This document shows positions 15,415-62,353 of a stretch of 64,000 bases of DNA, piece after piece. The position numbers were made by a program, and so were the translations under genes. The notes beneath the pieces are model-generated. The model had not been told where the DNA came from and searched no databases. It was given only the letters and a program-made list of their open reading frames with translations. Position 1 is the first letter of the stretch. Every line of letters starts with the position of its first letter. Source of the DNA: Planctomycetota bacterium (GTDB taxonomy: Bacteria; Planctomycetota; UBA1135; JACQFD01); contig JAEUHX010000058.1 in assembly GCA_016792805.1 (NCBI GenBank), forward strand, positions 326,228 to 390,227. The letters are read 5' to 3'.

Positions 15415-15893
15415 GCCTCCCGAAGGGCCTCGAGGTCGCCGAGTCTCCGGCGGCCGAACTGCCTCCGGGCGAGTGGCGTCCGACGCGACATGGCGATCGG
15501 GCTTCGGCCTCTGATGGCGTTCGTGGCGACCTTCGCGCCCTCTGCGGCGCAAGACGAGGTAGCGGTGCGCACCACGAGCTGCGCCGAAGGATTCGCCAAC
15601 GCGAGACAATGACTGGCGCGCAGTGGTACGCGGCGAGCGCAGGTGGGAGCCTCGAACTGCTTTGCGGAAATTGTGAGAGCACATTTCGAACGCGAGAGCG
15701 TTCACTCGGGCCATTGCGGCCCTCCAGAAGCTGCCGCCCGAGGAGATGCTCGCACGGCGCCAGCCGCGCTGGTCGAGTGTCGTTGGAACGGGGTTCGGCC
15801 GACGCAAGCAGTTCCACCGATTTTCATCCGCGCGCGCATGCGCGCGCGAGATCGTCGCGGGCGATGCCCGCGCCCTACGGCTTTACACATAGA

Positions 15894-15922
15894 AGACGGC
15901 TAGGAATGGGGCGTGGGTCGGT
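15894..15922 (+). repeat. 29-bp direct repeat, copy 1
   Basis: AGACGGCTAGGAATGGGGCG followed by TGGGTCGGT, identical to 16281-16309, 387 bases downstream. This copy is a solo end: no reverse-complement partner lies near it, unlike copy 2, which forms the left end of the inverted-repeat element. Confidence 0.85.
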
Positions 15923-16165: not shown

Positions 16166-16280
16166 ATGAGTAGTAGCGCGCACGCGCCCTCGGGCGGTGG
16201 CTGCGATTTCTGAGACACAGCCGCGGAATCCTACAGATTCCACATGTCAAATCCCGCGCGCCTTCATCGTCACCGATAAG

Positions 16281-16621
16281 AGACGGCTAGGAATGGGGCG
16301 TGGGTCGGTCTTGGCGCGGCGAGTTCCGCAGATGCGAGGCCAGGGCGCGCGCAGAATCCGATCGGCGCGAAGCGCCGGTCGGATTCTGCGCAGCCATTGG
16401 GCCGCTGAGCGTCGGGAGGTCATGACAGGATTCCTCCGCAGAGCGAGCGCGAGGAATCGGCGCTCAGCGCAAGGCGCGCAGCCGCAGGCGTAGCGAGAAG
16501 CTACGCCGAGGACGCGCAACGCCGCGCTGGGCGCCGAGGCCCGCGCGCAGCTCGGAAGAATCCTGGAATGGCCTCTTGGACTGTCCGCTGCCGAGACAAG
16601 ACCGACCACGCCCCATTCTTC
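16281..16621. repeat. 328-bp inverted-repeat-bounded, multi-hairpin element
   Basis: The left end GAATGGGGCGTGGGTCGGTC with TTG (16291-16313) pairs with the right end at 16597-16618, whose reverse complement differs by a single missing G. Inside are further hairpins: 16349-16368 with 16372-16391 (20-bp stem, one G/T-type mismatch, GAA loop), CGCTGAGCG with CGCTCAGCG, GATTCCTC with GAGGAATC, and GGCGTAGC-GAGAA-GCTACGCC. It has no transposase and no obvious target duplication. It could be a MITE-like element, a structured RNA, or decayed repeat DNA. A 127-codon reverse open frame spans it, but I regard that as incidental. Confidence 0.6.
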
Positions 16622-16723
16622 CCGAGTCACAACCCGCTAACCACGCGCCTTCCCCACGGATCCCTTAAGTAACCTCGCATCCGCGAAGCCCACAGATCCC
16701 AGGACTCCTCGCTCCCGCCAAGA

Positions 16724-39503: not shown

Positions 39504-39722
39504 AGAGAGGGTTTGCGGGCGAAGCTACGGGGGCCGCCTTCCCGTTGAAAGACCGCGAACCGCCGGCCGCATTCCCTCGAAGATCGGTCTTGGATCGATA
39601 CGTGGGAGTAGGGATGACGACGGCGACGCGGGTCGCGGGTCGTCGAGACGCGCCGCCCACGGGTATGCTTGCCGGCCCAGCCCGCCGCCCCCGCCGGGAA
39701 CCGACGTCCGCACCCTCGCCGA

Positions 39723-40919
39723 ATGCAGCTCTCGCAGCGCATCCAACAGCTCACGCCCTCGCTCACCCTCGCCATCGATGCGAAGGCGAAGGAGCTCCAG
39801 CGCCAGGGCGCCGACGTCGTGAACCTCGGTGCGGGAGAGCCCGATTTCGATACGCCGGCTCCAGTGGTTGAAGCGGCGCACCAGGCGGCGCTGGCGGGCA
39901 AAACGAAGTACACGCCCACGGCGGGGATTCCCGAGCTGCGCTCTGCGATCGCGGCGCGCGTGTCGAAAACCCACGGGATCGCCGTGGATGCCGCCGAGAT
40001 TGTGGTGTCGAACGGGGCGAAGCAGGCGCTCTACAACGCGCTTCAGGCCGTCGTGAACCCGGGCGACGACGTGCTCGTGTTCGCGCCCTATTGGGTGAGC
40101 TACCCCGACATGATTGCGCTCGCTGGCGGGCGCATGGTGCCGGTGGCGGTGCACGAAGGGAGCTTCGAGCCGAACCTGGCCGCCTTGGAGGAATCGTGCA
40201 CGGCGCGCACGCGAGGATTGATCCTCAATTCTCCGACAAACCCGACCGGCGCGGTATACTCGCGCGAGACGATCGAGGCGATTGTGGATTTTGCGCGGCG
40301 AAAGGATCTATGGATTCTTTCGGATGAGATGTATGAGCTGCTGGTCTATGACGGCGCCAAGCATGTGTCGCCCTCACAGATCGGTGCCGAAGGCCGAGCG
40401 CGCACGCTCATGGCGAGCGGATTCTCGAAGTCGTTCGCGATGACGGGGTGGCGCTGCGGATATTTGGTGGCTCCCAAGCAGGTCGCGTCCGCGGTGGCGA
40501 CGCTCCAGGGGCAAATGACCACCAATGTGAATACGCCGACGCAGTGGGCTGCGCTTGCGGCGCTCGACCTCGACGACTCTGTGATGGGCGCCATGGTGAA
40601 GGAGTTCGGCGAGCGCCGTCGTCTCCTCGTGCGCGGAATGAGTGAGATTCTGCGGGGGCGCGCGCCGGTGCATGAGCCGCGCGGCGCCTTTTATTTGATG
40701 CAAGACGTGCGGCCGTTCCTCGGCAAGCGTTTCCGCGACCGCCCGCTCCGCGACGACCGCGAGCTCGGCGAAGCACTCCTCGATTCGGCGCTCGTGGCCA
40801 CCGTGCCCGGCTCCGCCTTCGCCGCGCCCGGCTTCATTCGGCTCTCCTATGCGACGAGCCGCGAAAATCTACAGAAAGCTGTGGCGCGGATGGGTGCGTT
40901 CCTGAACGAGCTGGCGTAG
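39723..40919 (+). CDS. AspC-like PLP aminotransferase
   Basis: The product is 398 residues from ATG 39723. It contains LGAGEPDFDTPAPV, KYTPTAGIPELRSAI, NSPTNPTGAVYS, SDEMYELLVYDG and the PLP lysine in GFSKSFAMTGWRCGY, ending in FIRLSYATSRENLQKAVARM. This fits the bacterial aspartate/prephenate aminotransferase subgroup I-gamma. Its last 259 bases (40662-40920) are repeated at 45779-46037 with five substitutions, so the 3' end has taken part in a recombination or integration event. Confidence 0.9.
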   Translation: MQLSQRIQQLTPSLTLAIDAKAKELQRQGADVVNLGAGEPDFDTPAPVVEAAHQAALAGKTKYTPTAGIPELRSAIAARVSKTHGIAVDAAEIVVSNGAKQALYNALQAVVNPGDDVLVFAPYWVSYPDMIALAGGRMVPVAVHEGSFEPNLAALEESCTARTRGLILNSPTNPTGAVYSRETIEAIVDFARRKDLWILSDEMYELLVYDGAKHVSPSQIGAEGRARTLMASGFSKSFAMTGWRCGYLVAPKQVASAVATLQGQMTTNVNTPTQWAALAALDLDDSVMGAMVKEFGERRRLLVRGMSEILRGRAPVHEPRGAFYLMQDVRPFLGKRFRDRPLRDDRELGEALLDSALVATVPGSAFAAPGFIRLSYATSRENLQKAVARMGAFLNELA

Positions 40920-40920
40920 G
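40662..40920 (+). repeat. 259-bp direct repeat, left copy (3' end of aspC-like gene)
   Basis: The two copies are collinear without gaps and differ at five positions (about 98% identical). Identity stops abruptly on both sides. Four of the five changes are synonymous in the aminotransferase frame (CGC/CGA, CGT/CGC, GCA/GCG, TAT/TAC); the fifth changes Gly to Ala. Confidence 0.92.
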
Positions 40921-41188
40921 TACCCGCCCTCGAATAGGAAGAAGGTCGCCTGAAGGGTCACTGGAGCTTCAGCCGAGCAACCGTGCTGAGGCACCTCGGA
41001 GACGCTCGCCTGGCGAATCCCGTGCGAGTTGCCCGAACGTCCTGAATTTCTTCGCTTGCGCCTTTGGGCCACCAGAGGCAGCCTTGTCATCAGCCGCGTC
41101 CCCTCGAGCCCGCATGCTCGGCGGGGAACTTCTTTGCGGCGATGTGAGGAGATTTCTGTGACACATAGACTCCTGTCATGCGCGCCGA

Positions 41189-43129
41189 ATGAGGCGAGAC
41201 GCTCTCTCGCTCTCTCGCTCTCTATTATTGAGTAGCTTCGCAGCAGCTCATGCTGGAGGAGCGGTGGCTCAGGGAACCCCGGCAACCCACGGCCAGTGGA
41301 ACGGCCCCTACGCCAATATTCCGCCGCTCGGGACCCTGCCCACCCACACAGAGCCGATCATCCATGGCGGCATCGCTGGCACTCTTGTCCACGATGAGAT
41401 TGGCCACGCCTGCCTGATTCCTCCCCAAAGCACCGAAGGTCCGCTGCACCCCTACGCTGGGAAGGTCCTGGTCTGGAATCGCCAGGAGTTCGCCTATGTG
41501 GACAGCGCTCAGGTCTTCCACGAGATCCCCGTTACTCGAAAAGTGTGGGTAATCGATCCCAACACGACTCCGCCCGGAGTCACCGAGATTCCCGTGCCCG
41601 ACGGCGCCGTCCCGACCTCGATCTTTTGTTACGGTCAAGCGTTCACCGCCGATGGCAAGCTTCTCTTATCGGGAGCGGACATTACCGCCACGGCCAATAG
41701 CACTTTTCTCTTCGATCCGGCCGCCCCGAGCGGTACGCCGGGAATCGACGGAGCGTTCTTTTCGGGACCAAGCGCGCACCGTGCCCGCTTCTATCCCACA
41801 TTGACTCTGCTCCCCTCAGGACGCTTTGCCATGTTCGGAGGGAGAGAGTATCCCGTAACAGGCAATAAATGGCCCGAGGTGGAGTTCCTCGCGGTCACAG
41901 GCACCACAATTTCCGTCCTGCAGCTGGTGACTCCGTCATTCACCGATCATCTCTGGAATCACCTCTCGCCGCCTCAGACCTACGCCTTCGACTACTACCC
42001 CCGTATGTACTCCATCAATGATCCGGGTCTTGCGGGCGGTGACATGCTCTTTATTGGTAACGACGTCATTGGCGCCTTGACGCCACCACCTAAGCTCTCA
42101 TCGTACACCTATCGCGCATCGGACAATAAGGCCCGCGTTCACGATGGAGTTTGGAACCCCGCTGATCCCGCGCCGTCAGCCGATCGCCGGTATGGCAGCG
42201 CGGCCATCCTCTGCCAGCAGGTTCCTGGTACTAATCCGCTGCTGCAACGAGTCTTCACCATCTGTGGCTCCGACCAGCTTCGAGTAATGACTCCCGGATT
42301 CCCCGCGCTGAATACGATGGATGAATTCGTCGATCTGCAAAATGGCCTGTCCACAACGCGCCTTCCGGGCGGCGGACAGACTCCGGCTCCGCGAATCTGG
42401 CAGAACGCAACGATTCTTCCCGACGAGAGCATCTTCGTGAGCGGCGGCAGCGCCCATGACTCCGAGGCTGCAAAGTACCTCTGCCCTCCGAATACGCTTT
42501 GTAACCAATACGCCTCTCCACAATTGCAGGCTGAGATCTTCTATCCTCCTGCCACCGCGGCAAATCCGTCGCTGACCCTCTCGAGTCTGAAGCCAGCAGC
42601 TAGCGCCGCCCTGAATCGGCTCTACCACTCCACAGCGATTCTGCTTCCAGATGGGCGCGTCCTCTCCATCGGCGGTAGCGACACCCAGCTTTCGGAGTCT
42701 CCAGTGCTACCTGGCACCGAGAGCTCGCCATGGCCAGGCAATAGCGTTGAAATCTACTCCCCTCCTTACAAATTCTCCGGGATCGGCGGCCGCATTTCGA
42801 GCTGTCCGACTACGGTCGATTACGGCTCGACCTTCACCATCGATGTGACCCTTACGGGAACGACCGAGAGCCTCCTCGAGGAAGGCGCGAAGGCAGTGCT
42901 TCTCCGCTGCGGAACCGTTACACATCACCACGACTACGACGCACGCTTGGTCGAACTCTCAATCAATGCCACTCAATCAAGTCAGCTCAGCTCTGGCGCC
43001 TGGCATCTCTCCCTGAATGCCCCGACGCTGCAGAACGTCGGCGCCTGTCCCAAGGGGTGGTACATGCTCTTCGTCATCACCCCGACGAGTCATGTTCCCA
43101 TCGGCAGCCGATTCATCAAGATCCGATGA
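41189..43129 (+). CDS. Secreted galactose/glyoxal oxidase-like copper enzyme
   Basis: The product is 646 residues with a signal peptide ending near AVAQG (28). Kelch-type strand blocks (LPSGRFAMFGG, LPDESIFVSGG, LPDGRVLSIGG) form the beta-propeller and the C-terminal domain is DUF1929-like (THHHDYDARLVEL, WHLSLNAP, GWYMLFVI). All radical-copper ligands of galactose oxidase have candidates: Cys147 (FCYGQAF) for the thioether, Tyr202 (ARFYPTLT), Tyr479-His480 (RLYHSTA) and His579 (VTHHHD). It should oxidise an alcohol or aldehyde, making hydrogen peroxide, outside the cell. The following gene overlaps its stop (ATGA). Confidence 0.85.
   Translation: MRRDALSLSRSLLLSSFAAAHAGGAVAQGTPATHGQWNGPYANIPPLGTLPTHTEPIIHGGIAGTLVHDEIGHACLIPPQSTEGPLHPYAGKVLVWNRQEFAYVDSAQVFHEIPVTRKVWVIDPNTTPPGVTEIPVPDGAVPTSIFCYGQAFTADGKLLLSGADITATANSTFLFDPAAPSGTPGIDGAFFSGPSAHRARFYPTLTLLPSGRFAMFGGREYPVTGNKWPEVEFLAVTGTTISVLQLVTPSFTDHLWNHLSPPQTYAFDYYPRMYSINDPGLAGGDMLFIGNDVIGALTPPPKLSSYTYRASDNKARVHDGVWNPADPAPSADRRYGSAAILCQQVPGTNPLLQRVFTICGSDQLRVMTPGFPALNTMDEFVDLQNGLSTTRLPGGGQTPAPRIWQNATILPDESIFVSGGSAHDSEAAKYLCPPNTLCNQYASPQLQAEIFYPPATAANPSLTLSSLKPAASAALNRLYHSTAILLPDGRVLSIGGSDTQLSESPVLPGTESSPWPGNSVEIYSPPYKFSGIGGRISSCPTTVDYGSTFTIDVTLTGTTESLLEEGAKAVLLRCGTVTHHHDYDARLVELSINATQSSQLSSGAWHLSLNAPTLQNVGACPKGWYMLFVITPTSHVPIGSRFIKIR
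41201..41223 (+). repeat. Octanucleotide microsatellite in the oxidase signal peptide
   Basis: GCTCTCTC is repeated nearly three times from codon 5 of the oxidase. The unit length is not a multiple of three, so loss or gain of one unit would shift the reading frame. Confidence 0.75.
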
Positions 43130-45726
43130 GTACAATTCGACGCTTCCTTGCTGGGCTCCCTCTTCTTCTTTGGCTGGGGACGACAATGGACGCATGGGCG
43201 ACATGCAGCAACGCCCAAGGAGCGAACAGCGACTCGCTGTATCGCAAGCGGCTCGGCGAGTTTGCGGCATTCCAGGAATGCAGTGCCTCCACCGCCGAGG
43301 CCGCCGCTCCACAATGGACCGCTCAGCTCCCTGGAGCGGCTTGTAGTGTAACGCCCACACACATCGCAATTGCGCGAACAGGACGCCAAGCGCTGGGCGA
43401 ACCCGACGAAAGAGAGTGTGTGTTTCTGGAGCTCGAAGGCGCGGCTCCCGACGCGCAGGTGACTCCGCTCGTGCTTCAGCTTGCGAAGGGATCGAGATTC
43501 ACCGGAAGCGAGCCCCTTCGGTGGGCTCCCTCCCAGGCTCGAGCGACCCGCCTGCGCGTGGAGGGCGCCTATCCGGATGTGTCGATTGAGGTGTACTTTC
43601 TCCATGGAAGGCTTGAGTACGATGTAATCACTTCGACACCGAAAGCTCTCGAGGCTGTGAAGATCCGAGTCGAGGGAGCCCGAGCACTGCGAGTTACAGA
43701 AGACGGCTCCCTGTCCGCGGATCTCCCGCTCGGGCCTCTTCTGCAGCGCAAGCCGCGGGCAGCCACCGAGGGCGCGCCGGCAACGACGATTCCGTGCGCG
43801 TATCGCGTCCTCGGCCCCCGCACGTTCGGGTTCGTTGCGGAAGACCACATGGGAGCGCTTCGGATCGATCCGCAGCTCGAGTATGGAACCTATTTGGGAG
43901 GAATCGAGCTCGACGAAGGCTATTCCATTACAACAGATGGAAATGGTGCCTGCTTCGTAACTGGAAACACCGGCTCCTCCGACTTCCCAACCACACCTGG
44001 GAGCTTCAAGACCATTGGCACGCCCTTTGGGGATGCATTTATTACGAAGCTGTCTCCAGATGGATCTCAGGTCGAGTTCTCAACATTTCTCGGGCTCGGC
44101 GACATGCGCGCCGTCGCGCTAAGCCCCAACGGTTCCGTCGTGGCAGCCGGGAAGGGCATCTCGACGGGCATACCCTCGGAGAGCTTCCCAACGACTCCAA
44201 ACGCCATCTATGCGTCCGTCGGCCAAAATTCGATCCCAGCCTTCTGTGTCTTATCACACGATGGCGCTGCCCTTCTCTATGGAACCTATGTCGGTGGCGG
44301 AATTGCTCCCATCGAGGACATCTATGTCGACTCGTTGAATCGTCTCTACGCCTGTGGCGCTGTCACATTCAGCTTTAGCTATCCTTTTCCACTCACACCT
44401 GGTCCGCTCGGGGCACTCAAAGGACTCTACGACTCGATGCTGATGAGGTTCTCGCTCACGAGTCTTGCCATGGAATTCGGCTGTGCTATCGGCGGATCGG
44501 GCACCGAAGGAGCATTTGGGCTGTCGGTGCGATCCGATGGAGCTGCGGCGACCATCAGTCGCACGTCATCTGTTGGCTACCCAGTCACGGCCGGTGTACC
44601 TCAGCCCGTGAACAACAGCCCCCTGCACGACAAGCTTGGCGTGACGGTAGTGAGTCCATCGGGAGCATCACTCGAGTGGAGCACCTTCTGGGGCGGTACA
44701 CTACCGGGATCGGCGTTCGCGTCAAATGCACTTGCCTGCGCCTTTGACTCGACGGGCGCGCTTACAGTCGCGGGGACCACAGCGACTAAGGACTTCCCCA
44801 CGACGCCTGGAGCTTTCAAGCAAATGGGCCAAGGGAGCCCGACAATCGCGAGCGACTGCTTCGTGTCACGTTTCGCACCGGACGGAACAAGCGTACAATT
44901 TTCTACACTTCTTCTGAACGCGGGCGCCAACTTTTTCCGCGATGCCATCGTAGCGCCTGACGGGACGACGCTCGGCACCGGATTTACTACGAGCCCCAAT
45001 TACCCCGTCACGCCAGGCGCTCTCAAGCTTACTCCTGGAGGTGGAGCGTCCGATCCGGCTCTCGCACGATTCAGCGCCGATGGCAGCGCCGTGCTCTATG
45101 GCACTTTTCTTGGGGGAGGCTTCGATACCGCGGAGGAGTCGCACTCGCTGGCCATGGACTCCGTGGGGGCCGTGTACATCACCGGATACACGAACTCCCC
45201 GAACTTCCCCGTAACTCCTGGAGCATTCGACACCATCTACAACAATAATGGGTTCTCACCATTCGACTGCTGGATTCAGAAAATCACCCCACCGGTCAAC
45301 CAGCTCCCGGGCCTGAACGCCTACGGCACCGGCACACCTGGCTGCGCCGGCCCCCACCTTCTCGCGGCGCACTCAACGCCGAAGCTCAACAATCCTCACT
45401 TCGCACTGACCTGCGCCAACGCGCCGCGCGGCGCCAACGGGATCTTGATCTACTCCTCGGCGCCGGAGCCCGTCGGCGTCGATTCCCTCGGAATTGGCGC
45501 CCTCTCCCACATTCAGATCCTCGGCGCCTCGCTGGGGTGGCTCGATCTCAGCGCGCCTCCGCAGGGCACCTCTACGACCAAGCTTCCGATTCCCAACTCT
45601 CCCCACTTTCTCGGCCTCAAGGTCTACGCCCAAGCCTTCTGGCTCTGGCCCGCCTCGCAACCCTGCCCCCAGCTTCCCTTCGGCCTCAGCTCCTCCAACG
45701 GACTCGAAATCGTGATTCAGAATTGA
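43126..45726 (+). CDS. Secreted SBBP beta-propeller repeat protein
   Basis: The product is 866 residues from ATG 43126, four bases inside the oxidase gene. A signal peptide (to about 26) is followed by a region to about 240 that resembles the uncharacterised N-terminal domain of SBBP proteins. Then come about six SBBP units of the pattern YGTYLGG...D...G..YVTG.T.S.DFP.TPGAF. The C-terminal 140 residues start LNAYGTGTPGCAGPHLLA and end GLEIVIQN; I associate this module with secreted proteins of certain planctomycetes. It is probably surface-displayed. Paired with the oxidase as a two-gene operon inside the direct-repeat-bounded cassette. Confidence 0.85.
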   Translation: MSTIRRFLAGLPLLLWLGTTMDAWATCSNAQGANSDSLYRKRLGEFAAFQECSASTAEAAAPQWTAQLPGAACSVTPTHIAIARTGRQALGEPDERECVFLELEGAAPDAQVTPLVLQLAKGSRFTGSEPLRWAPSQARATRLRVEGAYPDVSIEVYFLHGRLEYDVITSTPKALEAVKIRVEGARALRVTEDGSLSADLPLGPLLQRKPRAATEGAPATTIPCAYRVLGPRTFGFVAEDHMGALRIDPQLEYGTYLGGIELDEGYSITTDGNGACFVTGNTGSSDFPTTPGSFKTIGTPFGDAFITKLSPDGSQVEFSTFLGLGDMRAVALSPNGSVVAAGKGISTGIPSESFPTTPNAIYASVGQNSIPAFCVLSHDGAALLYGTYVGGGIAPIEDIYVDSLNRLYACGAVTFSFSYPFPLTPGPLGALKGLYDSMLMRFSLTSLAMEFGCAIGGSGTEGAFGLSVRSDGAAATISRTSSVGYPVTAGVPQPVNNSPLHDKLGVTVVSPSGASLEWSTFWGGTLPGSAFASNALACAFDSTGALTVAGTTATKDFPTTPGAFKQMGQGSPTIASDCFVSRFAPDGTSVQFSTLLLNAGANFFRDAIVAPDGTTLGTGFTTSPNYPVTPGALKLTPGGGASDPALARFSADGSAVLYGTFLGGGFDTAEESHSLAMDSVGAVYITGYTNSPNFPVTPGAFDTIYNNNGFSPFDCWIQKITPPVNQLPGLNAYGTGTPGCAGPHLLAAHSTPKLNNPHFALTCANAPRGANGILIYSSAPEPVGVDSLGIGALSHIQILGASLGWLDLSAPPQGTSTTKLPIPNSPHFLGLKVYAQAFWLWPASQPCPQLPFGLSSSNGLEIVIQN

Positions 45727-45766
45727 GTTATGTTCGGCTCCCCTGTCATCAGAAATCCTATGGGAA

Positions 45767-46036
45767 ATGGATTTCCGAGCGCCGGTGCATGAGCCGCGAG
45801 GCGCCTTTTATTTGATGCAAGACGTGCGGCCGTTCCTCGGCAAGCGCTTCCGCGACCGCCCGCTCCGCGACGACCGCGAGCTCGCCGAAGCGCTCCTCGA
45901 TTCGGCGCTCGTGGCCACCGTGCCCGGCTCCGCCTTCGCCGCGCCCGGCTTCATTCGGCTCTCCTACGCGACGAGCCGCGAAAATCTACAGAAAGCTGTG
46001 GCGCGGATGGGTGCGTTCCTGAACGAGCTGGCGTAG
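45767..46036 (+). pseudogene. Detached 3' fragment of the aspC-like aminotransferase
   Basis: Open frame of 89 codons. From its RAPVHEPRGAFYLMQD stretch to the end it repeats the last 85 residues of the aminotransferase with one difference (Gly to Ala in RELGEALL/RELAEALL). It lacks the whole PLP-binding part, so it cannot be an enzyme. It marks the right end of the 4.86-kb oxidase-SBBP cassette. Confidence 0.9.
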
Positions 46037-46037
46037 G
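45779..46037 (+). repeat. 259-bp direct repeat, right copy
   Basis: Matches 40662-40920 at 254 of 259 bases, same orientation, offset 5117 bases. The intervening 4858 bases hold exactly the oxidase and SBBP genes. No integrase, IS or tRNA is present at either boundary. Confidence 0.92.
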
Positions 46038-46242: not shown

Positions 46243-47016
46243 ATGAATGAACACTCGAATGGTCAGGAAGATCCCACAGATGCCGAGCTTGTGCTGCGGC
46301 TCAGAAGTCCCAAGCGCGAGGTCAGAGACCGAGCGATGGATGCGCTGCATGAGCGCTATGCCGAGCGGCTGAAGCGAGTCATCGCTGCGCGCCTCGGTAG
46401 CCAGCTTCGCCGAAAAGTGGGCGTTAGCGACGTTGTTCAGTCTGCGTTCATGGTACTGATGCGGCCATCCCTCAAGCCGCGTGGGGATGATATGTGGAGG
46501 CTACTTGTGCGCATCGCACGCCTAAAGTGCGCGGCGCGGCACGAGCACTACACCGCCGCGAGACGCAGTATGAGGAGAGAGACTCCAATCGAGGACTCGG
46601 AAGCGCTCCGAAATCAAGCGGAGCTGATGATCGGATTCGATCCGCAGCCCCGAATGGTCGCCGCAGGCTCAATTGCCGATTCTACTGAGGAGATCATCGA
46701 AACTGTACTCGGGTTGATGAAGGCAAGTACACGGCTCAAGCCATCTCTCAAGGCATTTCTCGAATTGTACGTGAGATGCGGCGAGCTTCGACTGCCTGAG
46801 ATCGCACAGAAACTATCCATCTCTCAACGTACCGCCGAATCGCACATGATGACGATACGGGGGATCTTCTGCCGCCTGGCAGGACAGTGCCCAAGCTGCC
46901 ACCGCCAAGCTGCTGGAATCCCGCACGGTGAGACTATCTGTTGCGAATCGTGTGGACATCATTGGCCCAAGGAGGTCGAATCGACCGCCAAGTCGATCGC
47001 CATAGAGATATCCTGA
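46243..47016 (+). CDS. ECF-type sigma factor with C-terminal zinc-ribbon-like motif
   Basis: The product is 257 residues. Region 2 spans about 15-85 (ELVLRLRSPKREVRDRAMDALHERYAERLKRVI then VSDVVQSAFMVLM) and region 4 about 165-215 (RLKPSLKAFLELYVRCGELRLPEIAQKLSISQRTAESHM). A tail absent from ordinary ECF factors carries CPSCH and CCESCGHHW (about 216-242), a likely zinc ribbon. It lies 21 bases before the kinase gene on the same strand; such sigma/Ser-Thr-kinase pairs are typical of Planctomycetota, where the kinase is thought to replace an anti-sigma factor. Confidence 0.85.
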   Translation: MNEHSNGQEDPTDAELVLRLRSPKREVRDRAMDALHERYAERLKRVIAARLGSQLRRKVGVSDVVQSAFMVLMRPSLKPRGDDMWRLLVRIARLKCAARHEHYTAARRSMRRETPIEDSEALRNQAELMIGFDPQPRMVAAGSIADSTEEIIETVLGLMKASTRLKPSLKAFLELYVRCGELRLPEIAQKLSISQRTAESHMMTIRGIFCRLAGQCPSCHRQAAGIPHGETICCESCGHHWPKEVESTAKSIAIEIS

Positions 47017-47037
47017 ATACACACAAGGAGAGGAACC

Positions 47038-49785
47038 ATGGACGACAGAGCCGACCACAATTCAGAAATCCCGCATCGCGATCGCCCCCAGCAGTCATCC
47101 AGCGATACCACGCTCGAGGCCGCCTACGACAGGGCCATGGAATCCGCGGCCCGAGTGCTCGAGGAGTTTCTCCAGGAAGAGTTTTGCCGCAGTCCGGAGC
47201 TGGCGGAAAGGCTCCGTGCACGGCACGCTCACCTCAAGAGCGGCGGGATCCTTCCGATCGCACTGCTGGGATATGGAGCTTCGTCCATTCGCTCGAGTCC
47301 GATCGCAGGGCCAGTTCCAAGCCGTCCGAGCGAGTATGTACATCTTTCCGACTCGGAGCTCATGCGATATCTGCGCGGAAAGCCTCGGATCGAAGTGCGC
47401 TACGAGGTGCAAAGGCCTCTGGCTCGCGGTGGAATGGGCCAGATTGTTGAGGCCCGAGATCGTGAGCTGGACCGGCCAATTGCACTCAAGTGCATTTTGA
47501 GTAGCGAGCATTCGTTCGCTTCGGAGCGCTTTCTTCGCGAGGCCCGGATCACGGGCAGCCTCGAGCACCCAGGAATTGTGCCTGTCCATGAGCTCGGGCT
47601 CGATGAGAAAGATCGTCTCACTTTCTCCATGCGCCTCGTCTCAGGCGAGGATCTCGGAAGGATATTTGATCGCCTTTCTGATCCGAATGCAGGCTGGACG
47701 GTGGCGAGGGCGCTTGAGGTGGTGCTGAAGGTCTGCGACACGATGAGCTATGCCCATGAGCAAGGAGTTGTCCACCGCGATCTCAAACCTGCCAATATCA
47801 TGGTCGGGCGATTTGGTGAAGTATATGTAATGGACTGGGGACTCGCGAAAGGCAGGTGCGAGAGCGATGGCCAGAATTACGAAGGTCGATTCGCGGAGAA
47901 GTCTCCTTCGAGTCTCAGTAACGAGCAGATCGTTACAGCCGAGGGTGCGCTCGCCGGGACTCCCTGCTATATGTCTCCGGAGCAGGCTCATGGGGAGAAC
48001 GACAGGGTGGGATTCCATTCCGACATCTACGCCGTCGGCGCCATCCTCTATCACCTGCTGACGAGACGCGCCCCGTACGCAGCGGTCGGCCTGAAGGGCG
48101 AGCAAGTGTCAGCTCCGGCAATCATCGAGAGAGTTCGCGCAGGTCCACCGAAGTCGATTCTTGAGGTATCGCCGGACGCGCCCGCCGAGCTTGTCTCTAT
48201 TTGTAATAAAGCGATGGCGCGCGAGATCAGCGGTCGGTACTCCGACATGCAGGCGCTGGCCCGAGACCTGCGCTCCTATCTCGAGGGCCGTGTTGTGAGC
48301 GCCCACGAGTTTGGAACGATGGCAGAGCTGAAGAAGTGGGTTCGGAGAAACAAGGCGCTCGCTTGGACGAGCAGCATGGTTGTCCTTGTGACGCTGATTG
48401 GCCTTGCCACCACAGTACTTCTCCAGCACAGGCGACTGAACGACATTCTTCTCCGCGACGACGGGCTCCGTCTGCCTCACCTGAAGTCTACAGTTCGAGA
48501 TCTCGGGGCCGCACTTCCTGAAAATACCACAAAGATGGAAAGCTGGATTGCCATGGCAACGGAGCTCACATCGAGACTCCCCGCCCATAAACAGCGGCTT
48601 GCCGAGCTTCGATTGAGTTCTGGGAAGAAGAACGCGGACGGAGGATGGACATTCAACGATCCGAAAGCAGACGGAATGCACTCCGAACTCTCCGGCCTCG
48701 TCGAAGGGATCAGGAAGCTTGGTGACCCAACCGGTACGATCGGAACAATCAAGAACGCCGAGGAACGACTCAGCTTGGCACGCTGTCTCGAGCGGCGGAC
48801 CGTGGATGATCTCGCGCCAGCGTGGCAGCAGATGGCAACAGAAGTCGCGGACTCCTCGCAGCTCCCCATATACAAGGGACTCAGGATCGCTCCACAGATC
48901 GGTCTCGTTCCGATAGGTAGGGACCCCATATCTGGGCTGCATGAGTTCGCACATTTCGCATCGGGTAGCGTTCCAGCACGGGGCTCCGATGGCAGACTGC
49001 TTCTCTCGGAGGAGTCTTCACTTGTCTTCGTGCTCATACCACCTGGCTCTTTTGTGATGGGCGCGGTACCGCCTGCGGGCGCGCACCCCGATGGAGCTTC
49101 CAATGTCGATCCCCTTGCGGCAAGCGATGAAGGACCGCTGCGCGAGCTCAGCGTCGACGCGTTCTTAATCTCGAAGTATGAAATGACTCAAGGCCAGTGG
49201 CTTCGAACAACTCGGGAGAATCCAAGCTATTTCCATCCTGGCGAAACGATGGCGGGGCACCCGGCTACTCTTCTCAACCCTGTCGAGCAGGTGAGCTACA
49301 ACGATTGTCAGGAGGTGCTCCGAATTCTCGACTTGGCGCTTCCCACAGAGCTTCAGTGGGAGTACGCATCGCGCGCTGGCTCAAGTACACCGTGGTGGAG
49401 CGGAAGGGACAAAGCCTCCATCCAGGGCTGCGGAAACATCGCCGACGCCTACGCGAGCAGGCATAGCAAGCAAGGCGGATGGAAATATGAACTCTCAATC
49501 CACGATGGGCACCTTGGGCATGCTCGCGCGGGCTCCTTTCGCGCCAACGCATTCGGACTCCACGACACGATGGGTAACGTATGGGAGTGGTGCCAGGACG
49601 TGCTTGCGTTCTATAGCGATTCGAATGCGGTATCGAAGCGTGCAAGTGGAACGCGACTTTTTGTGCTACGAGGCGGCAGCTACAGCTCCGGCACGTCCGA
49701 CGCTCGGTCGGCTGCACGCTTGGCGGCCCCGCCGGCATTTGTGGATCGCACAGTTGGCGTGCGTCCGGTTCGGCTCATTCGATAG
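47038..49785 (+). CDS. Ser/Thr protein kinase fused to an FGE/sulfatase-modifying-factor domain
   Basis: The product is 915 residues. Kinase domain (about 120-400): glycine loop ARGGMGQIVEA, Lys in IALKCIL, catalytic HRDLKPANIM at 246-255, DWGLAK (DFG equivalent) at 266-271, and GTPCYMSPEQA. A single membrane helix ALAWTSSMVVLVTLIGLATTV (about 440-460) puts the rest outside. After a 200-residue linker, the FGE-sulfatase domain (about 660-915) has FVLIPPGSFVMGAV, RELSVDAFLISKYEMTQGQW, LPTELQWEYASRAG, GLHDTMGNVWEWCQD and LRGGSYSS. Many such fused domains are sensors without oxygenase activity. It is probably the partner of the sigma factor upstream. Confidence 0.92.
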   Translation: MDDRADHNSEIPHRDRPQQSSSDTTLEAAYDRAMESAARVLEEFLQEEFCRSPELAERLRARHAHLKSGGILPIALLGYGASSIRSSPIAGPVPSRPSEYVHLSDSELMRYLRGKPRIEVRYEVQRPLARGGMGQIVEARDRELDRPIALKCILSSEHSFASERFLREARITGSLEHPGIVPVHELGLDEKDRLTFSMRLVSGEDLGRIFDRLSDPNAGWTVARALEVVLKVCDTMSYAHEQGVVHRDLKPANIMVGRFGEVYVMDWGLAKGRCESDGQNYEGRFAEKSPSSLSNEQIVTAEGALAGTPCYMSPEQAHGENDRVGFHSDIYAVGAILYHLLTRRAPYAAVGLKGEQVSAPAIIERVRAGPPKSILEVSPDAPAELVSICNKAMAREISGRYSDMQALARDLRSYLEGRVVSAHEFGTMAELKKWVRRNKALAWTSSMVVLVTLIGLATTVLLQHRRLNDILLRDDGLRLPHLKSTVRDLGAALPENTTKMESWIAMATELTSRLPAHKQRLAELRLSSGKKNADGGWTFNDPKADGMHSELSGLVEGIRKLGDPTGTIGTIKNAEERLSLARCLERRTVDDLAPAWQQMATEVADSSQLPIYKGLRIAPQIGLVPIGRDPISGLHEFAHFASGSVPARGSDGRLLLSEESSLVFVLIPPGSFVMGAVPPAGAHPDGASNVDPLAASDEGPLRELSVDAFLISKYEMTQGQWLRTTRENPSYFHPGETMAGHPATLLNPVEQVSYNDCQEVLRILDLALPTELQWEYASRAGSSTPWWSGRDKASIQGCGNIADAYASRHSKQGGWKYELSIHDGHLGHARAGSFRANAFGLHDTMGNVWEWCQDVLAFYSDSNAVSKRASGTRLFVLRGGSYSSGTSDARSAARLAAPPAFVDRTVGVRPVRLIR

Positions 49786-54052: not shown

Positions 54053-57000
54053 CTACGCGAGATTCTGCTCCGCCATCGCCTGCGGGCGATCGTCATCGCG
54101 CGGGTTGATCCCGCGCGGCGGCGAGGAAACGGCGCGGAGGATGGTGTCGAGAGCGGCTTGAATGTCGCGCTCGGGATTTCCGCCATAGTCCACAAAAACG
54201 GCCGTGTCGTCGCGGAGCATCCTCCAGGGGCGCACCGACTCCAGCTCTTCTGTGACGCCCTCGCGGCCTACGACGACCGGCACGATCGAGAGCGGCGCGC
54301 GCGACTCCCTTCGGCGCAAAGCCTGGTCGACCTCGCGCTCGACATAGCGCGTCTCGCGCATTTGTGCGGGAACGAGGAAGGGAACCAACACGTCGGCGGC
54401 CTCGATGGCCTCTTCCATCTCCCGATCCATGGCCTCCGCTTCGTCTTCCATACGCCGCGATGTGTAACGTTCGCGGACGTCGATGCCGCGCTCGGCCAGC
54501 TGCTCCACGAGCCGAACAGCGAGGGAAACTGTAGCTTCCACGACTTCGTGGCTCAGCACGACGCAGGGGCGCCGCACGAAGTGAAGCTTGCCGTCGGCCG
54601 TGCGTGCGACAAGGCGCCCCGCGCTCTCGACCATCGCAAGAATGGGCGCATGCAGCGGCAACGCGGCGAGCAAAGTACCGTCGGACTCTCGCCACAATTT
54701 GATCCAGCCGTCGAGGGAAGCTGTCGCCAGTGCGCGGTCGTGAGCAAATCGAACCGCTGCAGTGACGGCTTGCCGGTGCGCCGCAACCGACCAATCCTCC
54801 GACTGCCCGCGCCCCACAAGAAGGATCGCTCCATCGCTTCGGCAAACCACAAATCCGGTGGATGGATCGCCAGGAACCACGGCCGTCACGCGCGAACCGG
54901 CGGCGACCTTTCCTTGAACTTCAAGCGTCGGACTCGAAAACACCTCAATTGCGCCGGAGTCGAAGGTCACTCGAAGCCGATCGGGAGTCTCGAACTCACA
55001 GGAGATCGCGCGCGCGGGAAGCTCAATCCTCGCAATGTCGCGCCGCTCTGTAAGGTCATAGACCACGAGGCTCCCGTTTCGCCGTACGACGGCAGCCGCC
55101 AACGCATCGCTCACGGCACATCGATCGCCAGGCCCGATCGGCCCTGTGGCACCCAGATCAAACTCGAAGCGGCCGCGCCGCTCGAGGTCGGACACGAGCA
55201 GCCGATTCATGCTCGAGAGCGCAACGATCATTCGACCATCCGAGGAGGCCGCCTGGTCATACAGAGGCTCTCCATACCAAATGGTCTCCTGCTTGGGCGG
55301 CTCCCCTTCTTTGACAAATCGAAGGACGAGCAATCCAAATCCGTCGCTCGTAGCGATTTGTACTTCACCACCGGCTGACGAAGCTACTCCTCGATATGCG
55401 GGCGGCAGCTCATATGTGGAGCCGCTCTCGCTCTGGGAGCTGAGGAGCCGATAGGCGTTGCCTGGCAGCGAAGCTGCAAGGCCTCCGCCCTGCAACGCCA
55501 GAAGTGAATACTTCTTCGCTGCGCGCGATGAAAGCCACCGTACTCGCGGAGGCGATAGAGCCCACTCCGCCCCCGAGATTCGACGGGCATCTGCGGACGG
55601 CACCTGCTTGATGGCACTCGTCGCTACAAATGCGAGGTGGTCCTCCGTGATGCAGAGAGCGAGGCTGGCGTTCGCATGCATAGCCCCGATGGAATCACTG
55701 TGACTCACGACGTCTCGGGCCATGACTCCATTGGAGGACAGGAAGGCCGAGCGCAGAACGCCGTCGTCACATGCAACCATGAACTCCGCCCCTGCGCGAG
55801 CCAGCTGAACGATGCGCGCATGGGGGAACTTCGAATTCCAGCGGGTTTCGACCACTTCGCTTCCTGGAAATCTCACTCTTCCATCGAGCCCCAGAACTGC
55901 AACCCCGTCCTCCTCGAGGAGCGCGATGGAACGAACAGCAAGATCGCACGCCAAGGCATGGCCTCGGGGGTGAAAGCCATCGAGCGTCCAGTCACCAACG
56001 GTGCCGTCGGCGAAGCCGGCGACCACTCGCTTTTCTGTAGCATCGATCTGAAGGTCGGTCACCGCGGCCTTGCCGCGGAAGGCGAGCGCGAGAGAGCTGT
56101 CGTCCAAGTTCAGCTCCAGAACGACTCCATCCTCTCGGCCGATTAGCAGCGACGCGCCGCCGGGAGTCATCTTCACACAAACGATTCCTTGAGGGACATC
56201 GAGCGCATGATGCGTCGCAAAAAGACCGGAGTGATCCGCGCGCGGATCGAAGCCTGCGAAATCCCAAACGCGAAGCTCATTCTTGGCATCCCAGGTCACC
56301 ACATAAAACCGCTCCTCCCGAAGTGACGCATTGGGACGCTCGTGGGGCTCCGTTACCTCAATTCCCCGCAGCGCCACAGTGCTCGCTGCTCGGCGGAGGA
56401 CTACCGCGCCGGACTCCGCGTCGACCACAGAAAGAGAGCCGTCTCCCCCAGCCACCGCCAGCAGCTTCTCAGGGAGGAATCGGGCCGCCACAATTCCCTT
56501 CGTTCCGGCGAACGCCGTCACGACGCGCGGCGTACCACTCAACAAATCCTCGGCGCCCTCCTCGGGATGTAAGAAAAACATACGGCCGTCCTCCGCCCAA
56601 AGCGCCGCGATGCCGTCGGCCGAGAGTCGCCCACCCACGACGTCGCTCAGCACCAGCGGCTGATTCGACGCGGGCCCGATCTCCACCGTCTTCCAGGGGC
56701 GCAGCAGAGGTCTACCAGGTGGGAAGTCATATTTCGAAAGAATCAAACTCTCGCTTCGGTCCAATTGGGCATTCAGAGCAAAAAGAACCTCCGAGACCGA
56801 GTTACTCTCATGTTGGAGTGATTGCAGCATCTCGTCGAGCTCGAATGCCTTGCCCGGCAACAGCTGAAGCTGATTGCCCGTGTTCGCGATATCTCCGAGG
56901 AACCGGAGACCCTGCTCCTGGGCACGGGACTCAATATAACTGACATCACGCAGAAGTCTTTCTGCACGCTCTCGATCACCGGCTTCCCAGGCATGAAAAA

Positions 57001-59032
57001 GTGCATTCCGAACGGCATATGTCCAGCGCTCCGAATCTCGCTCAGCGGAGGTAGGCCACGAGGCCGCCCCTCCCTCACGAATGACCTCCGCGTGGGCACG
57101 TAGAAGCGCATACTCCCCAATCGCCTGCCGCCCCGCGGCCCTGAGCTCCTCGCTTCGAATTCCGATGCGCCCGCCGAGATCAACAATGAATGGCCGCAGA
57201 ACTCGGCGCACCTCGCCGAACCGCGCCAGCGAACCCTGCCCGCTCTGGGGAATGGCGTTTTGTGCAATGGGACCGTCTTCCCCGAGGAACTCTTGAAAAA
57301 GGATACTCTGCGGAACCAGCTCCCGCTCGGCGATGAGGCGCTGCACCACATCCGCGATCTCCGGCCCTCCGATTCGCGCGAGAAATGCCAGCGCTGCTCG
57401 AAACGCTTCTGTGAGATCTGCTGGCAACATCGCGTCGAATCCAAGCGGACGCAGCTCCGATTGGAGCTTCGCCCAAGTCCACGAGGGGATGCTCTCGCCA
57501 TTTCGCAGCGCGTCACCGCCAAGTGTCTCCCGAATGGCGTTCTCGCGAATTGTGATCGACTCTCGCGTATCGAGATCGACGGGGTGGAAGTAGCGATCGC
57601 TCGCAAGCTCGCTCCGCGACGAGAACGACGCGACACCGACGGCGAGCGCGCCGAGCGGGCAGCGGAAGATCGGCTCCAGCGCCTCCTCGCCGGGAGTTTC
57701 ACAGCCGTCCAGAACGATCAGCAGCGGACCAAGCTTCAGGCGTTCGCCGCTCTCGGCGTATCGAGTCAAGACTCCCAACAATCTTCCCTCCGCAGTGTCC
57801 TCGCTTCCCTCGAACTGTGGAAACGCCCGCTCGATCTGTGCTGCAAGCGAACGCATTGCGATGTCGACGGAGCGCCCATGCGGCATGTCGCGGCGGAAGA
57901 AGTGATAGGCGACGCAGCCTGGACCGCTCGAGAAGCTATCGATGATGTTCACACAAATCGCCGACTTTCCTGTCCCCGCGCTCCCGGTGATGAGATTCCA
58001 CTGCCTGCCGACTGTCGTGCGCTCCAAGTAAGGATTCTTCCCGACGAAGGGCCGGTGCAGATCCATCAGCTCCGTGAAGTCGACGATCTCCCCTCTCAAT
58101 CGCGCGTCCACCGACGGCTGCGACTCGAGCTCGAATCGCTCGCCGAAGATCGTACGCAGCAATACGCGGTCGGCATGCGCCACTTCGACGCGCTGCATGC
58201 CCCACCGCTTTTGTTCGTTCCTCCGCAGCTCCAAACGGCGCACCGTCGAGCCCTCGACGGCCTCCAGCACGAGCGGCGCCGTCCGCGGGACCTCAAGAAT
58301 CGCAAGCGCATCGCGCTCCGTCGCGTCGGTCGCCAGCTCTTCGGGCGAGCCGGCCTCGAGCTGCCCTTCCCGCAGGCGCACCGCAATGCGCTCCCGCGGG
58401 AAGTCCTTGGGCGCCACCCAAGACAGCCATGCCGGAAGCTTTTCGTGATCTTCCGACCGGCGCATCACCCCGTCGAGCCGGAGATGCGCCGCGTCCGCCA
58501 GCATGGGCGCATCCGACTGCTGCGGAAGCCACTTTCCGTGACGCGCCAATAGGCGCGCCGCCCAGTGGGCGAGTCCACTCTGCGGGCCAGCCACCATGGA
58601 AGCGATGACCGACCGCAGGAGCTCCTGAATTTGTGCGCGCGCCTGCGCTTTCGAGCTCTCCTCCGGATTCCTCGCATCGTCGGAAAGCAGCTCGAGATAT
58701 TGCAATTTCTCTTCCGCCTGCTCCGCCGCCGGCAGATGGGCGTGGAGATCTTTTGTGAGCTCCCACGCATCGTCGTACTGCTTGCGCCCCCGCAGCCAGA
58801 GCCGCTCTCGCAGCGCGCTCCCTGCCTCCGGCGAAAAGAGAAACCCGCGGCGATCGGACGCCTCTACCGCCGGACAAAGCCACACATCAGCCTCAACTCC
58901 CGCATCGAGCTCCGGCAGCAAGCGCAGCCGTGCCTCGCGCAGCAGCGTCGGATCGACGCGCGCGGCAAACGAAACCACCTCCGCGAGACGCGTCGCATCG
59001 GCGGAGAGCCCGAAGGCCGCTTTCTTACTCAT
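54053..59032 (-). CDS. STAND-type NTPase with WD40-like repeats and C-terminal TIR domain
   Basis: The product is 1659 residues from ATG 59030-59032 (MSKKAAFGLSADATRLAEVV), overlapping the vWA-like gene by eight bases. Residues about 10-190 form an N-terminal domain (DPTLLREARLRLLPELDAGVEADVWL) resembling one I recall from actinobacterial MoxR-linked proteins. The NTPase follows: P-loop ITGSAGTGKSAICV at 349-362 and Walker B PLLIVLDGCE (436-445). Residues about 780-1485 are WD40-like blades (last: ALATASLDGWIKLWRESDGTLL). The C-terminal TIR (about 1489-1637) starts PCVVLSHEVVEATVSLAVRL, with candidate catalytic Glu1567 in RYVEREV. Likely the sensor/effector of the operon. Confidence 0.85.
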   Translation of the reverse strand: MSKKAAFGLSADATRLAEVVSFAARVDPTLLREARLRLLPELDAGVEADVWLCPAVEASDRRGFLFSPEAGSALRERLWLRGRKQYDDAWELTKDLHAHLPAAEQAEEKLQYLELLSDDARNPEESSKAQARAQIQELLRSVIASMVAGPQSGLAHWAARLLARHGKWLPQQSDAPMLADAAHLRLDGVMRRSEDHEKLPAWLSWVAPKDFPRERIAVRLREGQLEAGSPEELATDATERDALAILEVPRTAPLVLEAVEGSTVRRLELRRNEQKRWGMQRVEVAHADRVLLRTIFGERFELESQPSVDARLRGEIVDFTELMDLHRPFVGKNPYLERTTVGRQWNLITGSAGTGKSAICVNIIDSFSSGPGCVAYHFFRRDMPHGRSVDIAMRSLAAQIERAFPQFEGSEDTAEGRLLGVLTRYAESGERLKLGPLLIVLDGCETPGEEALEPIFRCPLGALAVGVASFSSRSELASDRYFHPVDLDTRESITIRENAIRETLGGDALRNGESIPSWTWAKLQSELRPLGFDAMLPADLTEAFRAALAFLARIGGPEIADVVQRLIAERELVPQSILFQEFLGEDGPIAQNAIPQSGQGSLARFGEVRRVLRPFIVDLGGRIGIRSEELRAAGRQAIGEYALLRAHAEVIREGGAASWPTSAERDSERWTYAVRNALFHAWEAGDRERAERLLRDVSYIESRAQEQGLRFLGDIANTGNQLQLLPGKAFELDEMLQSLQHESNSVSEVLFALNAQLDRSESLILSKYDFPPGRPLLRPWKTVEIGPASNQPLVLSDVVGGRLSADGIAALWAEDGRMFFLHPEEGAEDLLSGTPRVVTAFAGTKGIVAARFLPEKLLAVAGGDGSLSVVDAESGAVVLRRAASTVALRGIEVTEPHERPNASLREERFYVVTWDAKNELRVWDFAGFDPRADHSGLFATHHALDVPQGIVCVKMTPGGASLLIGREDGVVLELNLDDSSLALAFRGKAAVTDLQIDATEKRVVAGFADGTVGDWTLDGFHPRGHALACDLAVRSIALLEEDGVAVLGLDGRVRFPGSEVVETRWNSKFPHARIVQLARAGAEFMVACDDGVLRSAFLSSNGVMARDVVSHSDSIGAMHANASLALCITEDHLAFVATSAIKQVPSADARRISGAEWALSPPRVRWLSSRAAKKYSLLALQGGGLAASLPGNAYRLLSSQSESGSTYELPPAYRGVASSAGGEVQIATSDGFGLLVLRFVKEGEPPKQETIWYGEPLYDQAASSDGRMIVALSSMNRLLVSDLERRGRFEFDLGATGPIGPGDRCAVSDALAAAVVRRNGSLVVYDLTERRDIARIELPARAISCEFETPDRLRVTFDSGAIEVFSSPTLEVQGKVAAGSRVTAVVPGDPSTGFVVCRSDGAILLVGRGQSEDWSVAAHRQAVTAAVRFAHDRALATASLDGWIKLWRESDGTLLAALPLHAPILAMVESAGRLVARTADGKLHFVRRPCVVLSHEVVEATVSLAVRLVEQLAERGIDVRERYTSRRMEDEAEAMDREMEEAIEAADVLVPFLVPAQMRETRYVEREVDQALRRRESRAPLSIVPVVVGREGVTEELESVRPWRMLRDDTAVFVDYGGNPERDIQAALDTILRAVSSPPRGINPRDDDRPQAMAEQNLA

Positions 59033-60020
59033 CGGCGCCGGCCTCTCTGCGCCGCCCCACGCGAAGCGCCTGCGCCACCGCTCCGGCTGTCGTGCTGGGG
59101 CTCCAGGGAATGATGGATATTTTTCCTTCGAGCCCCTTGGGCCATCGCGCCCGCCGGTAGGGCACGAGTGCAACAAATCGGCAGCCATGCTGCTCAACTG
59201 CCGATGCAAGCGCCAGCCACTGCGCCGCGCTCGGCCGCGCATCGCCGCCCGGGCTGCGGCCGATTCCGAGGTCGGTGATACACATCACCGTGGCGCCGCG
59301 CGTGATCGTCTGCTCGAGGCCGACCTCGACGCCCTCCTCGCTTTCCTCCGACACCAGCAGCAGCGATTCCAAGGGAAGGCTCCAAAACGACGCGGCGCGC
59401 GTCAGCTCGCGACCCACCAGATCCCGCGCGTCCTGCTGGATCTGGCGCACATCCTCTCGAAACGGCTCCATGGCGGCGCGCTCGTCGATGAGAAATGTCA
59501 CCCCTCGCGCCAGAGTCCACACAGAACGCCTTGGAATCGACCGAAGCACTTGCCCCTTCGCCACAGCTTCCAGCAGGCGATCGAGTTCCACTTCACCGCG
59601 CGCGGCTGGGGCCGCCGCAGCGAGCCCGAGCACGCCGCGCATTGTAGGCTTTGGAAAAAGTGATGTGCGCAATGGCTTCGTCGCCGACACCGGTGCCCGA
59701 AGCGGCTGCGCCGACGCGAGCCACTCCGGAGCCGCCGACTCACGCCCGAGATCCCTCAGCGTGGCCTTTCGAATCGGCTTCGCCTCCGGCAACGCCGCGC
59801 GCGGAGCCGATGCGGCTCGCCGTTCTGTAACAACACCGGCACTCTCGGCAGGCGCTGCCGGTCGCTCGGAAACTGTGGTCTTCGCAGCAGTTGCGCTCGA
59901 CCCGCGGACGCCCACCTCGATACCCAGCATCCGCCCCACGGCTTTGCACGCGGCATCGTCTGCCGCGCCGAGCGCCGCCAGCGCGCGCAGGTAGTCCCCC
60001 GTCGGCGAGCCGCCGCTCAC
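59025..60020 (-). CDS. Degenerate vWA-like domain protein
   Basis: The product is 331 residues from a GTG at 60018-60020 that overlaps the MoxR stop as GTGA. I prefer it to the longer frame starting at 60077, which lies inside the MoxR gene. Residues 1-140 are Ala/Pro/Arg-rich and probably flexible. Residues about 165-315 have a vWA-like alternation: a first strand with RGVTFLIDERAAMEPFREDV, where the MIDAS DxSxS would be, then LLLVSEESEEGVEV, ATVMCITDLGIG and CRFVALVPYR. The MIDAS serines are replaced (DERAA), so metal binding may be lost. It lies between the ATPase and the STAND gene; it probably couples the two. Confidence 0.65.
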   Translation of the reverse strand: MSGGSPTGDYLRALAALGAADDAACKAVGRMLGIEVGVRGSSATAAKTTVSERPAAPAESAGVVTERRAASAPRAALPEAKPIRKATLRDLGRESAAPEWLASAQPLRAPVSATKPLRTSLFPKPTMRGVLGLAAAAPAARGEVELDRLLEAVAKGQVLRSIPRRSVWTLARGVTFLIDERAAMEPFREDVRQIQQDARDLVGRELTRAASFWSLPLESLLLVSEESEEGVEVGLEQTITRGATVMCITDLGIGRSPGGDARPSAAQWLALASAVEQHGCRFVALVPYRRARWPKGLEGKISIIPWSPSTTAGAVAQALRVGRRREAGADE

Positions 60021-60964
60021 GTCGACTCCCGTCGCGCCTTCGGCTTGAACACCGTGATTTTTGTGAGTGCTTCCCATTCCGCGGAGGTCGGATGGATGCG
60101 GAGGTCGCGCGCAGCCCGAAGCGTATCCACAAATTCGGCGGGGCTCGGAAGCTCAGCGTCGGGCGCGTCCCCCACAAGCGCTTTCAGCAGGCCGTCCACG
60201 TCGAGGGCCGCTGCCACGCCTTTCTGGACGGGGAAGCGCGCCTTGCCGATCTCGAGCAGCCGCCCGCGGTCGGGCTTGGGAAGCTCGAGCTCCACACATC
60301 GCCGTAGGAACGCCTTCGGAAGCACGCGCTCTTCGTTGGTTGTGAGAATCAATAAAGGCGCATTGCCTTCGTTGCAGCGCACCTCGGCGTTCGTCTCGTC
60401 GACGAGGAACCGCAGCGACCCGAGCGGCCCCAGGAGATTATTGGGGACGTCGGGATCCGCCTTATCGATCTCGTCAAGTAACACCACAGCCCGAGCGGCC
60501 TCCTTCCTGCTCAGTCCGGGATCCGCCAACCCGTCATTGATCGTGGCTCCCTCTGGCCGCCCGCGCCGTGCCGCACTCTTGCTGTCGAACGCCCACCAGA
60601 GCACGCCCGGTCTCACGTAGTGCGCGTAGTCGTCGCTGAGCGACTTGCTCTGCGCATCCTGCAGCCGCTGCAATAAATCGACCTCATACAAAAGGTCTCT
60701 CGCTTGCGTGCGCGATGTGATCACCCGTTCGTAGTAGCGCCACTGCAGCACGTCGGCGACGTGCATCGCAAGCGACGACTTCCCCGTCCCCGGCGCGCCG
60801 CGCACCAGCAAGGGCCGCCCCGTCGCCAACGCCACCTTCACCGACAGCACGATGTTGTCATGAAACACATAGACCGACGGATCGTCGGCGGGCCCGGCCG
60901 CCGCGCCGTTCGTCGTCAGCGCGTGCACATGCGGCGGATTGAAAACCCAAGAATTCGTGGTCAT
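60017..60964 (-). CDS. MoxR-type AAA+ ATPase
   Basis: The product is 315 residues. Walker A is VRGAPGTGKSSLAMHVADVL (P-loop at about 56-63), Walker B AVVLLDEIDKAD (about 159-170, with the catalytic Glu in DEID), sensor 1 LLILTTNEE (about 204-212), and an arginine-finger candidate in FLRRCVELELPKPD. Size and the motif set match MoxR-group AAA+ ATPases, which work with vWA proteins. Its ATG overlaps the TIR gene stop by four bases, and its stop overlaps the vWA-like start by four bases. Confidence 0.9.
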   Translation of the reverse strand: MTTNSWVFNPPHVHALTTNGAAAGPADDPSVYVFHDNIVLSVKVALATGRPLLVRGAPGTGKSSLAMHVADVLQWRYYERVITSRTQARDLLYEVDLLQRLQDAQSKSLSDDYAHYVRPGVLWWAFDSKSAARRGRPEGATINDGLADPGLSRKEAARAVVLLDEIDKADPDVPNNLLGPLGSLRFLVDETNAEVRCNEGNAPLLILTTNEERVLPKAFLRRCVELELPKPDRGRLLEIGKARFPVQKGVAAALDVDGLLKALVGDAPDAELPSPAEFVDTLRAARDLRIHPTSAEWEALTKITVFKPKARREST

Positions 60965-62289: not shown

Positions 62290-62353
62290 GGGGAGTTTGC
62301 GCCGCGGGAGTATTGCTGCCGGGGCGCAGCCGCGCCAGCGCGCGCTCGCTACC
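62290..62353. promoter_or_regulatory. 64-bp divergent promoter region
   Basis: All transcription of the four-gene TIR/MoxR/vWA/STAND operon (left) and of the HD phosphohydrolase (right) should start in or near these 64 bases. The inference rests on the divergent starts. I see no clear -35/-10 pair or operator palindrome. Confidence 0.5.

Follow-up and report, generated by a model that had tools for sequence, protein, structure and literature searches.

A two-gene segment between direct repeats of an aminotransferase 3' end in a planctomycete-like genome, most likely a one-off capture

Cis-mobilizable elements (CIMEs) are stretches of DNA lying between direct repeats at the 3' end of a gene, without an integrase of their own. 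In Escherichia coli K-12, prophage e14 sits in the icd gene; according to PMC6379469, which cites Hill et al. 1989, it displaces about 163 bp at the end of icd and provides a fresh 3' end in which an amino acid is conservatively replaced. When truncated, re-circularised DNA entered the E. coli chromosome by a single crossover, PCR revealed a partial duplication of lacZ in 56 of 60 clones; the duplications measured 109-950 bp in the 14 that were sequenced (PMC3240628). Homology-facilitated illegitimate recombination (HFIR) is known from S. pneumoniae, A. baylyi and P. stutzeri (PMC3240628), and displaced 3' regions have been described at T6SS/Rhs loci (PMC5361080).

The aspC-like locus described here, where a segment that we call X separates two copies of an aminotransferase 3' end, resembles each of these systems in part. 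As in the lacZ/pJA2 duplications (PMC3240628), foreign DNA lies between direct repeats of a host gene end and one repeat end would be the truncation or ligation point, but those came from a plasmid and a laboratory cross, whereas the aspC locus is natural and its copies are about 2% diverged. With HFIR (PMC3240628) and the T6SS/Rhs cases (PMC5361080) it would share one end anchored by homology and the other joined illegitimately, with the old 3' portion downstream of the newcomer. Unlike classical HFIR events, which delete a similar-sized piece of recipient DNA, it is a net duplication with no detectable deletion, and unlike both HFIR and T6SS/Rhs cases the duplicated gene is metabolic. As at e14/icd (PMC6379469), the newcomer restores the 3' end of a protein-coding gene with one conservative amino-acid change, and the original end is left as a fragment; the difference is that the aspC locus has neither integrase nor phage genes and measures 4.9 kb with two cargo genes.

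The repeat pair and the genes that it encloses

The window, that is, the whole stretch of 64 kb that was analysed, corresponds to C19:326228-390227, within the 414-kb contig C19 of a 5.74-Mb draft genome in 89 contigs. The features of the locus are the following.

39723..40919, + strand, intact class I/II aminotransferase, aspC-like (PF00155, 1e-76); start codon inferred, longest ORF from 39669
40662..40920, + strand, left repeat copy (R), 3' end of the intact aminotransferase through the TAG stop codon plus 1 nt
40921..45778, + strand, inserted segment X, about 4.86 kb, GC 0.60 (window 0.64)
41189..43129, + strand, galactose-oxidase/glyoxal-oxidase-like secreted protein, kelch plus GO-like E-set (PF09118 1e-15, PF13964)
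about 43129..45726, + strand, DUF7948 plus SBBP beta-propeller protein (PF25778 7e-20, PF06739); longest ORF from 43057
45779..46037, + strand, right repeat copy (R'), detached 3' end of the aminotransferase, reading frame open from ATG 45767
46243..49785, + strand, downstream neighbour Y: ECF sigma factor (46243-47016) and Ser/Thr kinase-FGE-sulfatase protein (47038-49785); PF07638, PF00069, PF03781

The two copies (40662-40920 and 45779-46037, offset 5117) are 259 bp long and identical at 254 of 259 positions, with 74 bp as the longest exact run in common; the 262-bp block given by the repeat finder is this repeat plus three flanking bases, one of them mismatched. The similarity is far beyond chance. 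Actually, this is the sole pair sharing 25-mers in the window, save one 29-bp intergenic pair, and the whole genome holds exactly two copies of the repeat. The initial annotation had described such repeats around exactly two genes, the left copy completing an intact aspC-like gene and the right one a detached fragment, and recomputing coordinates and identity bore this out: both genes were found, R lies in the PF00155 ORF ending at 40919, and R' begins mid-gene, at residue 314 of the 399-residue aminotransferase query, as part of an 89-aa ORF in frame with the ATG at 45767. The 5' end of the repeat falls at an arbitrary spot within the gene, with no special feature. At the other end both copies terminate 1 nt past the stop codon and the flanks are unrelated from the second base after it. 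The prediction that recombination between the copies would excise 5117 bp and leave the aminotransferase intact also held in silico, where joining 39720-40661 to 45779-46037 gave an uninterrupted aminotransferase ORF.

Fusion of X to an aminotransferase fragment by strain variants or a chimeric read is conceivable in a draft of 89 contigs, many of which start or end in repeats. However, the five differing sites leave no exact run above 74 bp, resolvable by ordinary k-mers or reads, and the junction of X with R' has no repeat in common with either side that could cause a false join. Repeat-driven misassembly is unlikely for these two reasons, and an assembly artefact of any of these kinds appears very improbable.

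X consists of two cargo genes only and has no mobilisation gene. The oxidase matched a GlxA model at 4e-23, under the cut-off of that model, and has three more full-length paralogues in the genome; oxidase paralogues are found on C54, C13 and C19. The oxidase-SBBP pair itself recurs once: the version on contig C84, about 60-75% identical in nucleotides, lacks flanking repeats. Judging from these copies, X belongs to a dispersed paralogue family, its cargo being ordinary secreted-protein paralogues of the lineage. The GC content is slightly under that of the window in X and likewise in Y.

The C-terminus of the SBBP protein is an unnamed domain of ~129 aa (45340-45726) with no Pfam match, which recurs at the extreme C-terminal end of many long ORFs with the pattern GC.G...P..GN..F...AP...LGL...D...G.DpFgiG..lHVd...AT...LD..sd..G....PIPN...L.G..yyAQ..W.W...C...P..LSsS.GL.i.iQ. 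There were 114 matches in the source genome, 128 in the same-family genome G001 and fewer or none in the order relatives. It may be a domain for sorting or anchoring that has not been described before. Over their last 328 bp, the two paralogous SBBP genes (window 45399-45727 and C84:127949-128276) are 92% identical, with about 60% upstream, and this similarity stops at the stop codon plus 1 nt; the pattern looks like a gene-conversion-like exchange of the C-terminal domain. Contigs C22 and C45 both start with the SBBP C-terminal module, mutually 98% identical over 578 bp.

Comparison with relatives and probable direction of the replacement

The comparison with relatives bore out the arrival of new DNA proposed by the initial annotation: at the aspC locus, X is missing from the orthologous position in G001, the one same-family genome compared, and in the order-level relatives G002 and G004, and X therefore arrived in the source lineage. 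Y, whose sigma factor matched a Planctomycetaceae-specific subfamily model under the cut-off, is likewise missing beside aspC in the three relatives. The description of the genome as planctomycete-like is based on this sigma-factor match together with the kinase-FGE families. Furthermore, G001 has its own unrelated genes downstream of aspC, and the block 51377-64878 is inverted with respect to G001 and G002, which agree on this convergent neighbour block, with one breakpoint just downstream of the aminotransferase region. Because X and Y are missing, G001 carries its own genes there and the block is inverted, the downstream side of the aminotransferase must have been rearranged more than once in the lineage. 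A GTDB scan with aspC gave distant relatives only, at most 48% identical. Neither a donor with aspC followed by X nor a strain with the empty site was found in the collections searched, which include one same-family genome, and no element at aspC was seen in the relatives examined.

Farther along the window, at 54053-62355, lies a gene set with TIR, NACHT/AAA and WD40 repeats, which also includes another TIR protein and an AAA ATPase of the bpMoxR type. The two genes on either side of this set are direct neighbours in G001, and the set had no clear PADLOC match; it looks like an inserted conflict or defence-type system.

Of the five differences between R and R', four fall on third positions and are synonymous; the fifth, at 40768, gives Gly in the intact gene and Ala in the detached copy. 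At this column 26 relatives have Ala (15), Cys (9), Ser (1) or Val (1) and never Gly. The syntenic aminotransferase of G001 (63% amino-acid identity) has the R' state at all three polarisable sites, 40768, 40775 and 40850, the last two being synonymous sites at which saturation is likely at that protein identity. It is suggestive only that the functional copy R bears derived states and R' keeps the ancestral ones, since three of three changes on the intact copy have p = 0.125 at equal rates in so small a sample. The trend is the opposite of a pile-up of extra changes in the unconstrained fragment, again from too few sites. Because the detached copy matches the relatives and the intact gene is derived, the comparison favours displacement of the resident end by incoming DNA, which would have supplied the present 3' end.

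The same differences bear on a purely local event, in which the last 259 bp of the resident gene were copied past X, here an older neighbour, by template switching or unequal exchange. This would need no donor, and the differences are few: their third-position bias has p = 0.045 against a uniform expectation and p = 0.19 against a duplication in which one copy is constrained and the other free, so that the counts are compatible with divergence in situ. However, if the source ran unbroken into X, a copy ending one base past the stop codon would be a coincidence, and the residue change lies in the constrained functional copy with the free fragment ancestral. We consider local duplication unlikely. 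Duplication followed by deletion, the second option of the initial annotation, is less parsimonious, since the sequence after both copies is unrelated from the second base past the stop.

Search for mobile-element signs and the origin of the arrangement

A gene 3' end duplicated, with the reading frame restored by the newcomer, is what a site-specific integrative element of the e14/icd type or a CIME leaves, and both features were found here. An integrase acting in the aminotransferase 3' end on an element that brings a replacement end is thus the main mobile-element rival, with X as an integrase-less remnant or cis-mobilizable element between attL and attR; the e14/icd-like anatomy (PMC6379469) and the derived residue in the intact copy speak for it. 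It fails on the recombinase. The absence of an integrase noted in the initial annotation extends from the segment and its surroundings to the 414-kb contig C19, where neither PF00589 (phage integrase, tyrosine) nor PF00239 (resolvase, serine) was found, the five plus two genes with these domains in the genome being on other contigs. X resembles a CIME in having no integrase of its own and in lying between direct repeats at the 3' end of a gene, but no integrase or related integrative element using the aspC site was found in X, in contig C19 or in the relatives examined. Against site-specific integration also stand the lack of a mobilisation gene beside the two cargo genes, the paralogous pair on C84 without flanking repeats, and the absence of a second gene-end duplication of this kind in the 2.49 Mb surveyed (43% of the genome).

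X had no match in plasmid and phage collections at megablast sensitivity, nor its oxidase in viral contigs. No structured RNAs were detected near the joints (three tRNAs only, elsewhere), terminators and promoters were at background level, and the three short junction sequences gave at most one chance 22-bp match in any comparison. The initial annotation proposed a footprint of integration at the 3' end of a gene, and one half of this proposal we keep: R restores the gene, R' is a displaced piece, X is absent in relatives and the differences favour an incoming 3' end. The mobile-element half was not supported, with no recombinase on the contig, no repeats around the C84 pair, no plasmid, phage or viral match at the sensitivities used and no second case in the 43% of the genome surveyed; nor do these results support a cassette as a moving unit. 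Site-specific integration is accordingly rather improbable, and it is very doubtful that X is an integrase-less cassette that can still enter and leave the aminotransferase 3' end, whether in trans or through RecA acting on the 259-bp repeats. If X were still mobile, the population would switch between forms with and without the oxidase-SBBP pair.

The other local direct repeats in the 2.49 Mb surveyed are intergenic, tandem, or kinase paralogues. The aspC pair alone stands out in these 2.49 Mb, and on this basis a genome-wide mechanism copying 3' ends was rejected. An interspersed intergenic repeat of about 380 bp, partly self-complementary, lies at 16270-16648 of the window (related sequence at 15874-15922) and has about 40 strong full or partial copies genome-wide, mostly at 90-96% identity and many at contig ends; it appears to be a MITE/REP-like family. 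Upstream of the window a short second copy (133 bp, 86%) repeats the 3' end of a kinase-FGE gene that lies 2.4 kb further downstream (C19:320851-320983 and 323246-323377). It could be what is left of a paralogue, or an event of similar shape but greater age.

The reading that we favour, and hold to be somewhat more probable than all the others together, is the scar of a single incoming piece of DNA that recombined with the gene end by a RecA-type process, through either a single crossover of a circularised fragment or HFIR. RecA-type recombination is preferred over site-specific integration because there is no recombinase on the contig, no plasmid or phage match at megablast sensitivity and no second case in the 2.49 Mb surveyed. 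The locus has homology on one side, ending at the stop codon plus 1 nt, and a non-homologous joint on the other, mid-gene at 40662/45779; such asymmetric ends are to be expected when orthologous loci whose neighbours differ are brought together. In the illegitimate joint of HFIR a micro-homology of 3-10 bp is usual and not obligatory. By the first route the fragment would have been circularised by end joining that truncated the incoming aspC copy at 40662, followed by one crossover; by the second, homology would anchor one end and the other would enter the resident aspC mid-gene by an illegitimate joint. Either way, at least part of the 3' end of the intact gene would be of incoming origin, and the resident one would have been shifted 5.1 kb downstream. 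The model calls for a donor with different sequence downstream of aspC, beginning at the second base past the stop codon. From the structure of the locus we infer the donor, which 3' end replaced which, and how recombination took place.

The aspC-X arrangement is thus most likely a one-off capture scar, produced by a known kind of event and with no sign of a dedicated mobile element. In this planctomycete-like lineage, for which sampling is poor, it would be a clear single-locus case of genes captured at the end of another gene with no mobile element in sight. The resident end of the aminotransferase gene would persist as a fossil, and the oxidase-SBBP pair could be lost by one crossover with the aminotransferase unharmed. 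The case also suggests that, unless a recombinase or an empty site accompanies them, directly repeated 3' ends of genes are better not labelled as footprints of integration.
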